Notes under the pieces: generated by a model
The model's input: only the letters and a program-made list of their open reading frames with translations
The model's database searches: none
Told to the model about the DNA's origin: nothing
Program-made: the position numbers and the translations under genes
IMG/VR virus record: IMGVR_UViG_3300031999_000053
Location: 1 to 43,975 of that record
Strand: one strand, 5' to 3'
DNA: 43,975 nt
Origin: a virus
Shown: one piece after another, positions 3,505-31,041 of the stretch
Numbering within the stretch: position 1 is the stretch's first letter
How the letters are laid out: every line of letters begins with the position of its first letter

Positions 3505-3824
3505 TAGTCCCATCTTGAATTAAAGTGAAAATCTTTTCCAAATTCTTTAGTAAGAAGTTCAGAAAATTTCTCGGCAAATACTTCTTTGTGAGACATGGAT
3601 TGGTTAAAATCTCCAACCCAATATTTATAATGCTTTGCATAATTGTCCCAATCCATAAGTTCTAAAGCTTCAAGTTGTTTACCAAAAACATCATTTTTAC
3701 GAACCTTGAGATATACCCAGGCAAAGCCACAGGGATAAATCATAATATCTTCACCTGCAGTTTGAAAAGCATATTTTCTTGCTTCAATCCGGGCTTTTTC
3801 GAAAACATCTTTTATGTTATTCAT
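3504..3824 (-). CDS. Conserved phage protein with CGFAWV motif, function unknown
   Basis: 106 aa. It contains CGFAWVYLKV around residue 32 and an NQSMSHKEVFAEKFSELL helix near the C-terminus. The combination of GED, a CGFAWV core and a later N-Q-S-M/K-E-A helix recurs in small uncharacterised proteins of many large phages, as I recall. No catalytic motif is visible. Its stop overlaps the start of the next gene. Confidence 0.55.
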   Translation of the reverse strand: MNNIKDVFEKARIEARKYAFQTAGEDIMIYPCGFAWVYLKVRKNDVFGKQLEALELMDWDNYAKHYKYWVGDFNQSMSHKEVFAEKFSELLTKEFGKDFHFNSRWD

Positions 3825-24181: not shown

Positions 24182-26041
24182 ATGTCTAAAGATGAATTTA
24201 TTTTATATATTTCAACAAATAATCTAGGTTTTTATAAGACAAGAAAAATTCATATCAAGAAACGATTTCCCGAAATCCTTCAAGAAATTAAAGAATTTTT
24301 ATTAATACACAATTTAACTCCTATTAATTTTAATGATGCTGTACATTACTATATAAATAATTGTATTGTGCAAAATAAATGTTCTTGTGGAAAAATTATA
24401 CACCATGATTCTATGTATTGTTCTAATAAATGTAAAAATGACAATATCGATATAATTTTAACTAAATCTAGATCAACATTATTAAAAAAATACGGTGAAA
24501 ATAGTCCACTTAAAATATCTCAATTTAAGAAAAAATTTGAAGATACATGTTTAAATAAATTTGGAGAAATTCACCCATCAAAAAATAAACAAGTTGCACA
24601 AAAAATAAAAAATACAAATATAAAAACATATAAAGATTCTAATCTACGGAAAAATGTAAGTATTAGAATTAAAAAGGCTTATGAAAAGGATATAGTAGGC
24701 ATAATAAAAAAAAGAAAACAAACAAATTTCAATAAAACGGGGGAATATGTAACATTAACATCAAGTGCTATAAATAATGCTAAAAAAACTCTTATAAAAA
24801 AATATAACACACCAAATCCATTTGCTATACATAAAAATACATATGAATTAGCAAAATTAGGAAGTTTAAAATTTTATAATAATAATGAAAATAAAGAAAA
24901 GGCTATTAAAAAAAGAATAGAGACTATAATTAAAAAATATGGTTCTTTAAAAATAGTGTTTTGTTTAAATGATAATTTTTATCTTTAAATAAATCGCTAT
25001 GCCAATATATTCCATTAAATTCTATTGCAATATGTTTTTCTGGAATATAAATATCGATTTCACTACCCTTAAGTATTTTTTTATTATTTTTTTCACATGA
25101 AATATATGTATTTAACCAGTTAAAAAGTTCTATTTCGGCATTTGATCTCCATTGCACCGGTGGTGAACATATAACACAAGTTATATCATTATGATTCGTT
25201 CTATCTCTTAATAATCGTAATGATATATTATACTCTTGATTACATTTATGACATCTACATTTAACATATCCTAAATTATTATATTCAATCTTTATAATGT
25301 TATCAATGACACCAGATTCTTTTAAATTTTTTAATATTCTTTCCTTTTTATTATTAAAAACTATTTCATTCATTTTATCTAAAAAATCTAGATATTCATC
25401 TTATTCATATATGGGAAGATTTATGGAATAATAAAAAAGATATTATAAAAGGAAGAATTTTATCAAAACTTAGAATTAATCAAATATCTATAGGTGCGCG
25501 AAAGTGTAAGATACAAGAAATTTCATCGTTTACAGCAAATGAATTTTATGAACTCAATCATTTACAGGGTAAAACAAAAGGCTTTAGGTATATTGCTTTA
25601 TATTTTAATAATGAAATTATTTCATGTATAAGTATTGGAAAAAGAAAATTAGGAAAAAATAAAAATATTAATACATTTGAAATTTTAAGATTTTGTAATA
25701 AAATAGGAATTAACTGTATTGGTGCGTTTTCAAAATTATTTAATTATATTATTAAAAATTATCCAGCTAAATATATTTCATATGCGGATTTATGTTGGGG
25801 TGAAGGAAATGTATATGAATATTCAAATTTTAAGTTGAAAGAATATTCTAAACCTAATTATTGGTATTTTTTAGAAAATAAAAGATATCATAGATATACA
25901 TTTAATAAACAAAAACTTATAAAAATGGGATATGATAAAAATAAAACTGAATTTCAAATCATGAATGAAATTAAAGCATTTAGAGTATATGACTGTGGAA
26001 ATGCTATATGGGAATATATAATAAATAAAAATGGCTTTTAA
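24182..26041 (+). pseudogene. Hef-like homing endonuclease scrambled by an internal inversion
   Basis: Residues 1-252 (24182-24940) carry a CSCGK...YCSNKC zinc motif and repeated KKYGxxxP / NTxxKTYG-type units typical of phage Hef-like endonucleases. The nuclease core (EIDIYIPEKHIAIEFNGIYWHSDLF) lies on the opposite strand in 24942-25387. The C-terminal part (LDIHLIHIWEDLW to stop at 26041) is again on the plus strand, open over 218 codons with no start codon. Re-inverting 24942-25387 gives one open frame of 619 codons across both joints. The gene is therefore broken as sequenced. Confidence 0.85.
24942..25387 (-). other. 446-bp inverted segment within the homing endonuclease gene
   Basis: The minus strand of this segment encodes the missing middle (FLDKMNEIVFNNKKER... 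to ...NKTLFLKN). With breakpoints near 24941/24942 and 25387/25388, both joints are in frame (..KKY-D-FLDKM.. and ..NKTLFLKN-LDIHLIHIWED..). The eight residues between NKT and HLIHI match the usual family spacing. An alternative crossover in the 7-bp inverted repeat AAATAGT (24951) / ACTATTT (25360) is also in frame but adds four residues there. TAAAAAAT flanks both breakpoints. Confidence 0.8.
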
Positions 26042-27513: not shown

Positions 27514-29268
27514 GTGGCTGGATTTTCACTACGCAACTTAGATCGAGGTCCTCAGACCTTTATGGATAATATTCAGAGAAATATCCGTTACTTATCAATT
27601 TTTGGTATGCGGTGGGATCAGAATATTATTAAGCAATCAAAGGCAATTGGTATTACTGAAATTCAAGAAGATTCGATGTATAGTCTCTATGGACAACATC
27701 AATTGGCTTCTGGAATGGATATTAATCAAAAAGAATTTATTGCATTTTTTGATAAAGAATATGCTACACGAAGAGACTTTTTAAGAAGATTTGCGATGAA
27801 TGGTGAAATTGAACATGTGCTTGAAGTAATAGCAGATGAAACAATTATATTAGATGATGCTAATTTCTTTGCATATCCAAACACTCGTAAGTTAAAATCT
27901 GTTCTTAAAGCTGAAAAGGCAAAAGAAATAGTAGATGATCTTAATGAATCGTATAAAAAGGTTTATTATGCGTTCGGTTTTAACTCTGGACATGATGGTT
28001 GGCATTACGCTAAAAAATTCTTAATTGATGGATTTCTTGCATTCGAAATTATTTATGATGGTGAAGGTTCTGAAGATGCTAAAAATATCTTAGGATTTAA
28101 AGAACTTGATCCTGTTACTCTTGAACCTGAAATTCGAAAAGATGAAAGTGAAAATGAATATAGAGTATGGATACAATTTAGGGGTGATACTGAGCGTCAG
28201 CGAGAATTAGTTGATGGTAATGTTATTTATATCTCATGGGCTAGAGGAAATTTCATATCTCGTTTATCATATGTTGAAAGACTTGTTCGTGCATTTAATA
28301 TGCTTCGCACAATGGAAAACTCACGTATCATCTGGAATGTTATTAATGCTCAACAACGAATGAAAATTATAGTTCCAATTGGAACTCAATCAGAAGTTAA
28401 AGCAAGAACTCGATTGTCTGAATTACGTGGTATGTACAAAGAAGACATCACAATTGATTATCATAGTGGTGAAGTAACAATAAATGGAACTCCGAATTTT
28501 TCATTTGCAAAACAATATATCATTCCTTCAAAAACTGATGGTGGCCAAGTTGAAATTGATTCAATGGCACCAGCTGGTTATGATTTATCAGGTACTATGG
28601 CACTTGATTATTTTTGGAAAAGATTTATTATTGAAACCAAAATCCCTAAAGATAGATTTTCATCTGCTGGTGAAAATGGTGGAGGAGATTCGAATTGGAC
28701 AACTGGTGGTGATAGTATTGCAAGAGAAGAAATACGATTTGGTTATTTTATAAATAGAATTCGTTCTATTCTTCAAGAAATATTAATGAAACCTACATGG
28801 ATTCAATTTTGTCTTAAACAACCAGTTTTTGCAAAAGATAAAGCATTAAAAGGTGCTATTGGACTTGAATTTATTGAAGAAAACTTGTTTACTGAATCAA
28901 AGAAAAGACAAATTGATGGTAAAGGTGCTGAAATGGTTGAAAAACTTATGGGCATACATCAACCAGAAATAGATGCAGAAGGTGCAGTAACAGCAGATGG
29001 AATGTATTTTGACCCCAAGTTTTTAGTTGAAAAATACATGAACTTCACTGAAGAAGATATGAAACTTAACGAAAAATATAAGAAAGAAAGAAGAGAACAA
29101 TTAACAAGAGTGGCAGACGCCATTAAACGTGTAAAAGCAGCATCAGGCGAAGAAGAAACTATAGGAGGTGAAACTGGTGGTATGAATACGGGTACTGAAG
29201 ATCTTGGCGGCGGTGCTACTGAAGAACCTGGAGCAGAAGCGGGCGGAGCAACTGAATTAGGATTATAA
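27514..29268 (+). CDS. Portal protein (T4 gp20-like)
   Basis: 584 aa (T4 gp20 is 524). The start is GTG. Recognisable gp20 features: RRDFLRRFAMNGEIEHVLEVIADETIILDD (~90-120), the clip/stem region IYISWARGNFISRLSYVERLVRAFNMLRTMENSRIIW, APAGYDLSGTMALDYFWKRF, and SSAGENGGGDSNWTTGGDSIAREEIRFGYFINRIRSIL (~390-430). The C-terminal ~50 residues are a Gly/Glu-rich tail not present in T4. It forms the dodecameric DNA entry ring. The gp4-like nuclease gene is upstream. Confidence 0.9.
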   Translation: MAGFSLRNLDRGPQTFMDNIQRNIRYLSIFGMRWDQNIIKQSKAIGITEIQEDSMYSLYGQHQLASGMDINQKEFIAFFDKEYATRRDFLRRFAMNGEIEHVLEVIADETIILDDANFFAYPNTRKLKSVLKAEKAKEIVDDLNESYKKVYYAFGFNSGHDGWHYAKKFLIDGFLAFEIIYDGEGSEDAKNILGFKELDPVTLEPEIRKDESENEYRVWIQFRGDTERQRELVDGNVIYISWARGNFISRLSYVERLVRAFNMLRTMENSRIIWNVINAQQRMKIIVPIGTQSEVKARTRLSELRGMYKEDITIDYHSGEVTINGTPNFSFAKQYIIPSKTDGGQVEIDSMAPAGYDLSGTMALDYFWKRFIIETKIPKDRFSSAGENGGGDSNWTTGGDSIAREEIRFGYFINRIRSILQEILMKPTWIQFCLKQPVFAKDKALKGAIGLEFIEENLFTESKKRQIDGKGAEMVEKLMGIHQPEIDAEGAVTADGMYFDPKFLVEKYMNFTEEDMKLNEKYKKERREQLTRVADAIKRVKAASGEEETIGGETGGMNTGTEDLGGGATEEPGAEAGGATELGL

Positions 29269-29710: not shown

Positions 29711-29784
29711 ATTTAACAAAAATTTAACAAATATATAGTACATTTTTATAAAAATTGTATTATATTAGTTCTTTAAGATATTGA

Positions 29785-30090
29785 GAGTGCTGAAATGCTA
29801 GTTATAGAGTAGATATTTTGAGGTGCTTTTTTAATGATAACACTCCTATAATTAAAATAGGAAAAAGATATTAAAACGTTCTTTGTAAAAAGATTATCTA
29901 TGAGATATAGTTGTATGGACGAGATTTCGATATCTCCACCTCCACATGTATAAATAAAACGGGGGTGCATGGATTTGACAGCGACGAATAAGTAATAGAG
30001 ATTAGTTTTAATAACGCAATAAACGGCGAAAATGTTTATAATGAGTATCGTATTGCAGCTTAAGAAGTTCGCATACGACAAACAACAAAA
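29785..30090 (+). ncRNA. ssrA: Circularly permuted (two-piece) tmRNA
   Basis: Acceptor piece first: conserved GGAC (29917-29920), T-arm GAGAT TTCGAT ATCTC (29921-29936), acceptor strand CACCTCC (29937-29943) and A at 29944 (CCA would be added). About 16 bases later the coding piece starts with GGGGGTG (29961-29967), then GGATTTGACAGCG. GGGGGTG/CACCTCC pair over 7 bp with the G3:U70 alanine identity pair. The tag ORF runs from GGC at 30025: GENVYNEYRIAA then TAA (30061-30063). A helix-5-like stem TCGTAT (30048)/ATACGA (30073) spans the tag end. The acceptor piece 5' end is uncertain: CCTAT/ATAGG and GAGTG (29785)/CACTC (29841) pairings suggest it lies between about 29785 and 29841. It rescues stalled ribosomes and tags proteins for degradation. 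Confidence 0.9.
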
Positions 30091-30117
30091 AAGTTAGCCA
30101 ATTGGCTAACTTTTTTT
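30087..30117 (+). terminator. Rho-independent terminator of the tmRNA
   Basis: AAAAAAGTTAGCC AATT GGCTAACTTTTTTT is a perfect palindrome with flanking A- and T-runs; the base-paired GC core is GTTAGCC/GGCTAAC. It ends the coding piece of the tmRNA. The T-run runs straight into the ATG of the GH16 gene. Confidence 0.9.
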
Positions 30118-31041
30118 ATGAACATATATAAAAATTTTATGAAACAAATTTATTTAAGAAGTGTTCCTGCTAGCGATTTTTTTATAAATATATTTTATAA
30201 AATTAGATTCTGGTTTTATAGAAATTTTTGGAAAGATAAATTATCTCATTTTTCTAATGAATTAAAAGATAAATGGGAATTAACATTTAAAGATGATTTT
30301 CTTGAAAAATCTTGGGGAAATAGTGATGATAATAAAAAATGGATAGTTGGCGAATGTTGGGGTTGGTTTTACCCAGATACTATTTCTTATTTTGGTCCTC
30401 CAGAAACAACAAATGAACCGTATAGTAATGCTAAATTTACTGTTAAATATAATCCAAAAACTTTTCCTGATGATTTTAAAACTGGAAAACCTATAACAAT
30501 TCCATTTGAGGTTAGCCTTTTATCTTCGTGCCTTTCTTTTAAACAACAATACGGAAGATTTGAATGTTGTTGTACAATTCCACATGATAAAGGAGTATTT
30601 CCAGCTTTTTGGATGTGGGGATCAACTTGGCCACCAGAAATAGATGTATTTGAATTTGATGGTGGTATAGATGGAGAAACTGCTGGTAGACAAAAACCTG
30701 ATCTTCATTATGGAGTAGTTGAAGATGGAACTAAAAGAAGTATACCGAGATGGCCAATTAGAGTTGAAAGAAAAAATGAAAAGATAAGACACTGTGATAA
30801 ATTTCATGAATTTGCAGTAGAATGGACTCCAGATAAAATTAAATTTATAACTAATGGCATAACTGTATATAGATTTACTGGGAAAAAAGAATTAGAATGG
30901 TTTAATAAAGATACAACTAAAATGTGGATAGTAATTAATCATGGTATAAATATGAATAACATTCTACATGTTAAATCTGACGAAAAAAATTATTATTCAG
31001 AATTTTTAGTAGATTATATAAGAGCATATAAAAAAATATAA
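30118..31041 (+). CDS. Glycoside hydrolase family 16 enzyme
   Basis: 307 aa. WPPEIDVFEF holds the GH16 retaining signature E-I-D-x-x-E (E174 nucleophile, D176, E179 acid/base). The surroundings fit: KWIVGECWGWFYPDTIS, YGRFECCCTIPHDKGVFPAFWMWGS, FHEFAVEWTPDKIKFITNG and MWIVINHGI. GH16 enzymes cleave beta-1,3/1,4-glucans and galactans such as laminarin, agar or carrageenan. No signal peptide; residues 18-38 are aromatic and hydrophobic. The ATG directly follows the tmRNA terminator, so the real start may be the ATG at 30136. It could be a virion depolymerase or be released at lysis. Confidence 0.85.
   Translation: MNIYKNFMKQIYLRSVPASDFFINIFYKIRFWFYRNFWKDKLSHFSNELKDKWELTFKDDFLEKSWGNSDDNKKWIVGECWGWFYPDTISYFGPPETTNEPYSNAKFTVKYNPKTFPDDFKTGKPITIPFEVSLLSSCLSFKQQYGRFECCCTIPHDKGVFPAFWMWGSTWPPEIDVFEFDGGIDGETAGRQKPDLHYGVVEDGTKRSIPRWPIRVERKNEKIRHCDKFHEFAVEWTPDKIKFITNGITVYRFTGKKELEWFNKDTTKMWIVINHGINMNNILHVKSDEKNYYSEFLVDYIRAYKKI

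Follow-up and report, generated by a model that had tools for sequence, protein, structure and literature searches.

The 43,975-base window, an IMG/VR virus record analysed here over its whole length, very probably carries a functional tmRNA (ssrA) gene in circularly permuted form, belonging to a Mahaphage-like phage. An earlier note had proposed a permuted, two-piece phage tmRNA at positions 29785-30117 from the letters alone. This assignment is borne out by ARAGORN and by the Rfam model RF04321 (tmRNA_permuted), which find the gene at the same coordinates in a viral record with portal, head-closure and helicase genes. Permuted tmRNAs are a known kind of RNA, found here in a less known setting. 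The newer point is the stub of an endonuclease gene whose relatives adjoin tmRNA genes of every known layout, and this association is the part of the analysis most worth following.

In the window, the 3' strand of the acceptor stem comes first, followed by the 5' strand and then by the tag ORF (Table 1). As the earlier note had read, GGAC and a T arm stand before the acceptor 3' strand, GGATTTGACAG, the tag ORF and a terminator-like hairpin follow the 5' strand, the two acceptor strands pair with a G3:U70, and the spacer put at about 16 bases is 16 nt long. ARAGORN reports a permuted 'tmRNA*' at 29853-30154 with the tag GENVYNEYRIAA and a stop codon. RF04321, whose modelled base pairs cover the tRNA-like domain only (PMC11915505), matches 29892-30063 over the full length of the model with 55.2 bits (gathering 47, E = 3.4e-8), and this is the sole over-threshold match in an Rfam scan of the whole window. 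The lineage models for the alpha (RF01849), beta (RF01850) and cyano (RF01851) forms give no match over gathering in the window, the best being a partial beta match of 26.1 bits vs 84. An unconstrained fold forms the T arm, with 5 bp and a 6-nt loop, and the 7-bp acceptor stem (z = -3.67), and 0 of 200 shuffles are as stable.

Table 1. Features of the permuted tmRNA locus, in window positions.
Feature	Position	Strand	Basis
Portal protein gene	27514..29268	+	PHROG 213 portal, E 6.9e-50
Partial second copy of leader and acceptor-piece start (GTTCTTTAAGATATTGAG...AGTAGATAT), no T arm	29768..29816	+	Sequence comparison
Homing-endonuclease-like C-terminal remnant, CFFNDNTPIIKIGKRY and stop	29824..29874	+	Frame open from 29794; sequence comparison
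tmRNA acceptor piece (3' tRNA-like half, encoded first)	29867..29944	+	RF04321, ARAGORN, alignment with relatives; ends at discriminator A73
GGAC	29917-29920	+	Direct sequence reading
T arm	29921..29936	+	GAGAT 29921-29925, TTCGAT 6-nt loop 29926-29931, ATCTC 29932-29936
Acceptor stem 3' strand, CACCTCC	29937..29943	+	Sequence reading and covariation
A73	29944	+	Sequence reading
Intervening sequence, 16 nt	29945..29960	+	Removal by processing predicted from known permuted tmRNAs
Acceptor stem 5' strand, GGGGGTG, G3:U70	29961..29967	+	Sequence and covariation; RNase P cut before 29961 predicted
tmRNA coding piece (5' tRNA-like half, tag ORF, terminator)	29961..30117	+	ARAGORN, RF04321, folding
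GGATTTGACAG	29971-29981	+	Sequence reading
Tag reading frame, GENVYNEYRIAA and stop	30025..30063	+	ARAGORN; resume codon GGC at 30025
Terminator-like hairpin, AAAAAAGTTAGCC AATT GGCTAACTTTTTTT	about 30087..30117	+	Folding

The gene shares with other two-piece tmRNAs of RF04321 the order of acceptor half, intervening sequence and coding half, the G3:U70 pair and the tag frame. It differs from the alpha, beta and cyanobacterial permuted tmRNAs in falling below the cut-offs of the lineage models, in its 6-nt T-loop and in the lack of an encoded CCA, as A73 is followed by CAT. The T-loop TTCGAT, which the earlier note had suspected of having 6 bases, is also formed at that size by the unconstrained fold, and the relative L126 likewise has 6 nt. 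The 7-nt TTCRANY type is usual, but RF04321 does not require it, and it is not defining, as none of the 30 alpha members sampled has this type either. A P2 helix joins the two pieces (GTTGT at 29910-29914 with GCGAC at 29981-29985), in agreement with the RF04321 alignment, and is stronger in the relatives L122 and L136 than in the window (GTATGCAA/TTGCATAY).

Sixteen viral loci have portals that are 78-100% identical to that of the window (best segment). Related phages show the same gene order, with a permuted tmRNA after the portal gene in 10 of the 11 portal-related contigs searched whole (8 of them over the RF04321 cut-off), although one of the 10, L135, is identical to the window in portal and tag and so is not independent. 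The remaining region, in L130, is present with no tmRNA at the site, indicating that the tmRNA is dispensable. A blastn search of the window tmRNA against phages gave no match because the gene is too diverged, and the T-arms of its relatives were used as queries instead. The tags of the relatives are conserved and end in MAA or IAA. Two of these genes, in L121 and L127, carry the non-canonical T-loop GGCGGAA, a type of some alphas, and are syntenic with the gene of the TTCGA type in the window.

Covariation was measured on an alignment of the tRNA-like parts only, with spacers omitted and N placed at the gaps of two 6-nt T-loops and at two D-region positions. In 9 distinct sequences, the 12 acceptor and T-stem pairs are 100% paired, compared with 80% in shuffled and 42-59% in slid alignments. 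Changes on both sides, the compensatory variation to be looked for in related phages, occur in 7 of these 12 pairs (all five of the T stem and two of the acceptor stem). The covariation value of 0.528 compares with 0.120 for shuffled alignments, none of 500 reaching it, and with no more than 0.208 for slid ones, and the G3:U70 (a U-G pair) is invariant in 9 of 9 relatives.

It is improbable that the gene is a degenerating or non-functional relic. An odd 6-nt T-loop would fit such a history, as would the stretch at 29768-29874 upstream of the acceptor half, which to judge from its sequence is clearly debris made up of the partial duplicated leader and an endonuclease C-terminus. However, the stems, G3:U70, tag frame, stop and terminator are all intact, and the stems covary across relatives. 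Chance complementarity with no RNA gene has nothing more than the AT-rich background in its favor and is barely conceivable, being refuted by the covariation and opposed by two independent programs and by synteny.

The partial leader copy matches the sequence with which the working gene begins in L122, L124, L125 and L136. A boxA-like leader, GTTCTTTAAGATAT, is found at 29768-29790 of the window and in relatives, ahead of most tmRNAs of the clade. LR756500 and LR756501 have the similar GTTCTTTGAARATATG directly ahead of their tmRNAs, and GTTCTTTGA stands before some chromosomal tmRNAs of Bacteroidota. Directly 3' of the window tmRNA is a glycoside hydrolase family 16 gene (PF00722, 30118-31041).

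If the RNA functions as predicted, one transcript would be made, RNase P would cut before G1 (29961), and 3' trimming would leave A73, to which host enzymes would add CCA. The two pieces would be held together by the acceptor and P2 helices. Established tmRNA biology suggests that the RNA would be charged by host AlaRS, with EF-Tu and host SmpB as partners. The charged tmRNA with SmpB would then enter stalled ribosomes, add Ala-GENVYNEYRIAA and free the ribosome at UAA, and the tagged protein would be marked for ClpXP-type proteolysis. The gain for the phage would probably be ribosome recycling over a long infection. We rejected an SmpB partner encoded near the window tmRNA, as no SmpB was found in the contigs of the permuted-tmRNA clade, which include a 405-kb relative and are mostly fragments. 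SmpB is encoded in Lak-A1 (MK250016), LR756504 and LR756501.

The genes of the window include those for portal, head closure, RNA ligase/tail, helicase and sigma proteins, and the 44-kb record is probably a fragment. The best public relatives of the portal are those of Prevotella Lak phages/Mahaphages and other huge phages, at 39-42% identity. Al-Shayeb et al. 2020 placed Lak within the Mahaphage clade, and Bacteroidetes are the predicted replication hosts of Lak and of the largest Mahaphages (PMC7162821). Because the portal is nearest to those of Lak phages and Mahaphages, the tag is of the Bacteroidota GE(N) type and no CCA is encoded, we infer that the host of the phage is likely a member of the Bacteroidota. 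The same three features make the earlier description of the virus as a Bacteroidota phage likely rather than proven. A further ORF of the window, at 24930-25373 on the minus strand, is homing-endonuclease-like (PHROG 3339) and belongs to a family distinct from the tmRNA-adjoining one described below; it has relatives in L131, L126, L130 and Mahaphages.

The earlier note knew of no permuted tmRNA in a Bacteroidota phage. This is contradicted by four crAss-like phages (cr125_1, cr114_1, cr50_1 and cr272_1) and Chryseobacterium phage MA9V-3, deposited Bacteroidota phages whose tmRNAs ARAGORN finds to be permuted, and we therefore rejected any claim to a first example. Three of these five tmRNAs exceed the RF04321 cut-off, and all five genes were deposited simply as tmRNA. 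They resemble the window gene in being permuted, in their G-type tags and in having no encoded CCA. In contrast, the phages are unrelated to that of the window, and in the larger of our two trees their tRNA-like domains mostly fall with one-piece tmRNAs of Bacteroidia. Within a limited literature search, we found no paper describing the permuted form in Bacteroidota phages. One-piece tmRNAs are present in Cellulophaga phi38:1 and Calle_1.

Two-piece tmRNAs of phages in general have been published: 402 phage genomes yielded 133 unique tmRNA structures, of which 53 were two-piece by ARAGORN, 50 of these from marine or aquatic phages (PMC9004378). Methylophilales phage Melnitz, from the same study, likewise encodes a permuted tmRNA, but its gene is alphaproteobacterial-like and accompanied by a glutamine riboswitch, whereas the window gene belongs to a Mahaphage-like phage and has an endonuclease stub at its start. 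We found at least 120 viral stretches that match the permuted junction, and among the matches listed most are permuted by ARAGORN. The crAss-like permuted tmRNAs have RAGATH-9 or RAGATH-22 RNAs shortly upstream (L270 1289-1457, L274 1021-1188 and L276 857-1023), and in L274, which is cr114_1, a tRNA gene (1545-1616) lies within the intervening sequence.

The window tmRNA belongs to a phage whose likely host phylum has one-piece genes on its chromosomes: 60 of 61 Bacteroidota genomes contained one-piece tmRNAs, as did 53 of 60 genomes of one class. RF04321 exceeds its cut-off in only 1 of 395 Bacteroidota genomes; as positive controls, it did so in 37 of 41 Alphaproteobacteria and in 2 of 100 genomes of one beta order. 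A DNA polymerase A-like gene and tRNAs lie close to the lone match, whose genome also has a normal one-piece tmRNA, and the ORFs suggest that the match sits in a prophage. This count, with its single and apparently prophage-borne case, indicates that, in Bacteroidota, permuted tmRNAs belong essentially to phages. Among the matches of a pattern scan of genome contigs, ARAGORN found no tmRNA.

How tmRNA genes came to be permuted, apparently several times, is unexplained. For the window gene, there is close to an even chance that the order was permuted within this phage lineage or among Bacteroidota phages, as an event separate from those of the alpha, beta and cyanobacterial forms. More distant Mahaphages (LR756500, Lak-A1 and LR756504) have one-piece tmRNAs, and the EMxMAA C-terminus of the tag of LR756500 (GNNAEMRMAA, in a one-piece tmRNA scoring 95.5 bits) recurs in the permuted clade. 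An encoded CCA is absent in 6 of 6 members of this clade vs 1 of 30 alphas. The tags of the clade are mostly of the GE type, as in many Bacteroidota, and window clade and many Bacteroidota also share the lack of an encoded CCA; the window has the TTTGACAGC motif as well. Alphas have AN-type tags, an encoded CCA in 29 of 30, and the T-loop GGCRGTA or GGCGGAA. A reduced tree groups the window with Bacteroidota one-piece tmRNAs (89/87). However, the trees rest on about 73 columns of the tRNA-like domain, all permuted forms as one group are not rejected (p 0.196), the window is a long, unplaced branch in the larger tree, and the GGCGGAA T-loop of L121 and L127 occurs in some alphas.

It is possible, though doubtful on balance, that the gene was instead permuted before it was taken up from a proteobacterial or some other phage or host lineage and that its tag was adapted later. 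In favor of this, L121 and L127 fall with alphas in the reduced tree (100/97) and reach 49.8 and 46.2 bits under the alpha model (gathering 50), and donors abound among the viral stretches with a permuted junction. Yet this alpha-like signal probably rests largely on the T-loop, the window and other clade members do not group with alphas, and the window stays far under the cut-offs of the lineage models. The earlier note had offered independent permutation and transfer as alternatives, and trees leave this choice unsettled because the tRNA-like domain is too short: AU tests reject neither a phage clade nor an all-permuted grouping (p 0.14-0.20), and the placement of the window shifts with sampling between the larger and reduced trees. 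We therefore rejected trees as an approach to the origin. The Mahaphages, as one broad megaphage group, contain three tmRNA architectures, namely one-piece, permuted and, in LR756501, a form whose T-loop is interrupted by a group I intron (96.1 bits for the intron; the tmRNA scores below cut-off, with its exons paired by hand).

The stub in the window corresponds to the last codons of an endonuclease gene, fused to the tmRNA start. Its sequence, CFFNDNTPIIKIGKRY and stop, resembles the ends FFENTNPIIKIGNRY of L129 and IFKRNEPIIKIGKRY of L121, each followed by a stop codon. In both of these relatives, an intact 246-aa endonuclease gene stops exactly at the start of the tmRNA acceptor piece. The adjacent stub shows, by this resemblance, that a tmRNA-associated, putative homing endonuclease once occupied the window locus. 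The family is related to the gene just 3' of the intron-form tmRNA in LR756501 (30.6% identity, E about 1e-21).

With a profile as guide, 47 endonuclease loci were found in viral contigs, and 30 distinct loci were examined after near-identical copies and matches confined to the N-terminal zinc finger were left out. A tmRNA adjoins the endonuclease gene in all 30, as in LR756501, with 21 of the tmRNAs identified by ARAGORN or a covariance model and 9 by weaker evidence (profile-HMM, hand pairing or inspection). Those found by hand pairing or inspection (e.g. in L416, L422, L424, L433 and L436) were missed by ARAGORN and, where run, by the Rfam scan. Eight loci that share only the N-terminal part or short segments have no tmRNA by ARAGORN, although one, L411, has weak profile matches about 2 kb off. 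The gene association is therefore well supported. The linked tmRNAs are permuted (7), one-piece, split by a T-loop intron or, in one case (L417), tRNA-like only. In L416 (2911-3740), the endonuclease gene lies inside the intervening sequence, between a T-arm at 2911 and an acceptor 5' strand at 3728, and its stop codon overlaps the start of the coding piece.

The predicted endonuclease structure (pLDDT 86.3) has Vsr (1cw0) as its top PDB match by Foldseek, a weak one (prob 1.00, E 1.5e-3, TMt 0.43). E179, D181, H185 and D200 are invariant in 16 family sequences, while the window copy is a stub only. Previously described tmRNA endonucleases, in the literature searched, are LAGLIDADG proteins inside tmRNA group I introns (PMC11915505). 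Like these and Vsr-like homing endonucleases, the present family ties an endonuclease gene to the tmRNA near the T-loop. It differs from the LAGLIDADG enzymes in having a zinc finger and the weakly matched Vsr-like fold, and in lying mostly beside the gene, where it adjoins one-piece, intron-split and permuted tmRNAs rather than being inside introns.

These observations suggest that the family is a tmRNA-targeting mobile endonuclease that may reshuffle tmRNA genes, and intronless homing at tmRNA genes is our favored hypothesis. We tentatively propose that such zinc-finger/Vsr-like endonucleases might target the T-arm of phage tmRNAs, insert beside or between the halves, duplicate 3' ends and so drive conversion among one-piece, intron-split and permuted forms, the window gene being a product whose enzyme has decayed. 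A tandem of tmRNA, endonuclease and tmRNA that lost its outer halves would give the layout of L416, and loss of the enzyme from such a layout would give a permuted gene with a short spacer. In L413, L420 and L441, the stop codon of the endonuclease gene is followed by a further copy of the tmRNA 3' tail, which fits entry of the element at the T-arm with restoration of the 3' end. Among the endonuclease-linked tmRNAs, several have a T-loop that is odd or interrupted by an intron, and divergence of the T-loop as a form of endonuclease resistance is suggestive in a comparison whose set was picked by the TTCGA pattern.

As one megaphage group holds one-piece, T-loop-intron and permuted genes, and the endonuclease family adjoins tmRNAs of all three layouts (in L416, between the halves of a permuted gene), the origin of permutation becomes testable, through tandem tmRNA-endonuclease-tmRNA intermediates, cutting of the T-arm and the resistance of endonuclease-bearing alleles. 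The tRNA-like-only gene of L417 (3739-3849, minus strand) is 111 nt long, matches RF00023 with 50.8 bits, has a 6-nt T-loop and lies beside the endonuclease gene. It resembles the TLD-only tmRNA of mycobacteriophage DS6A.
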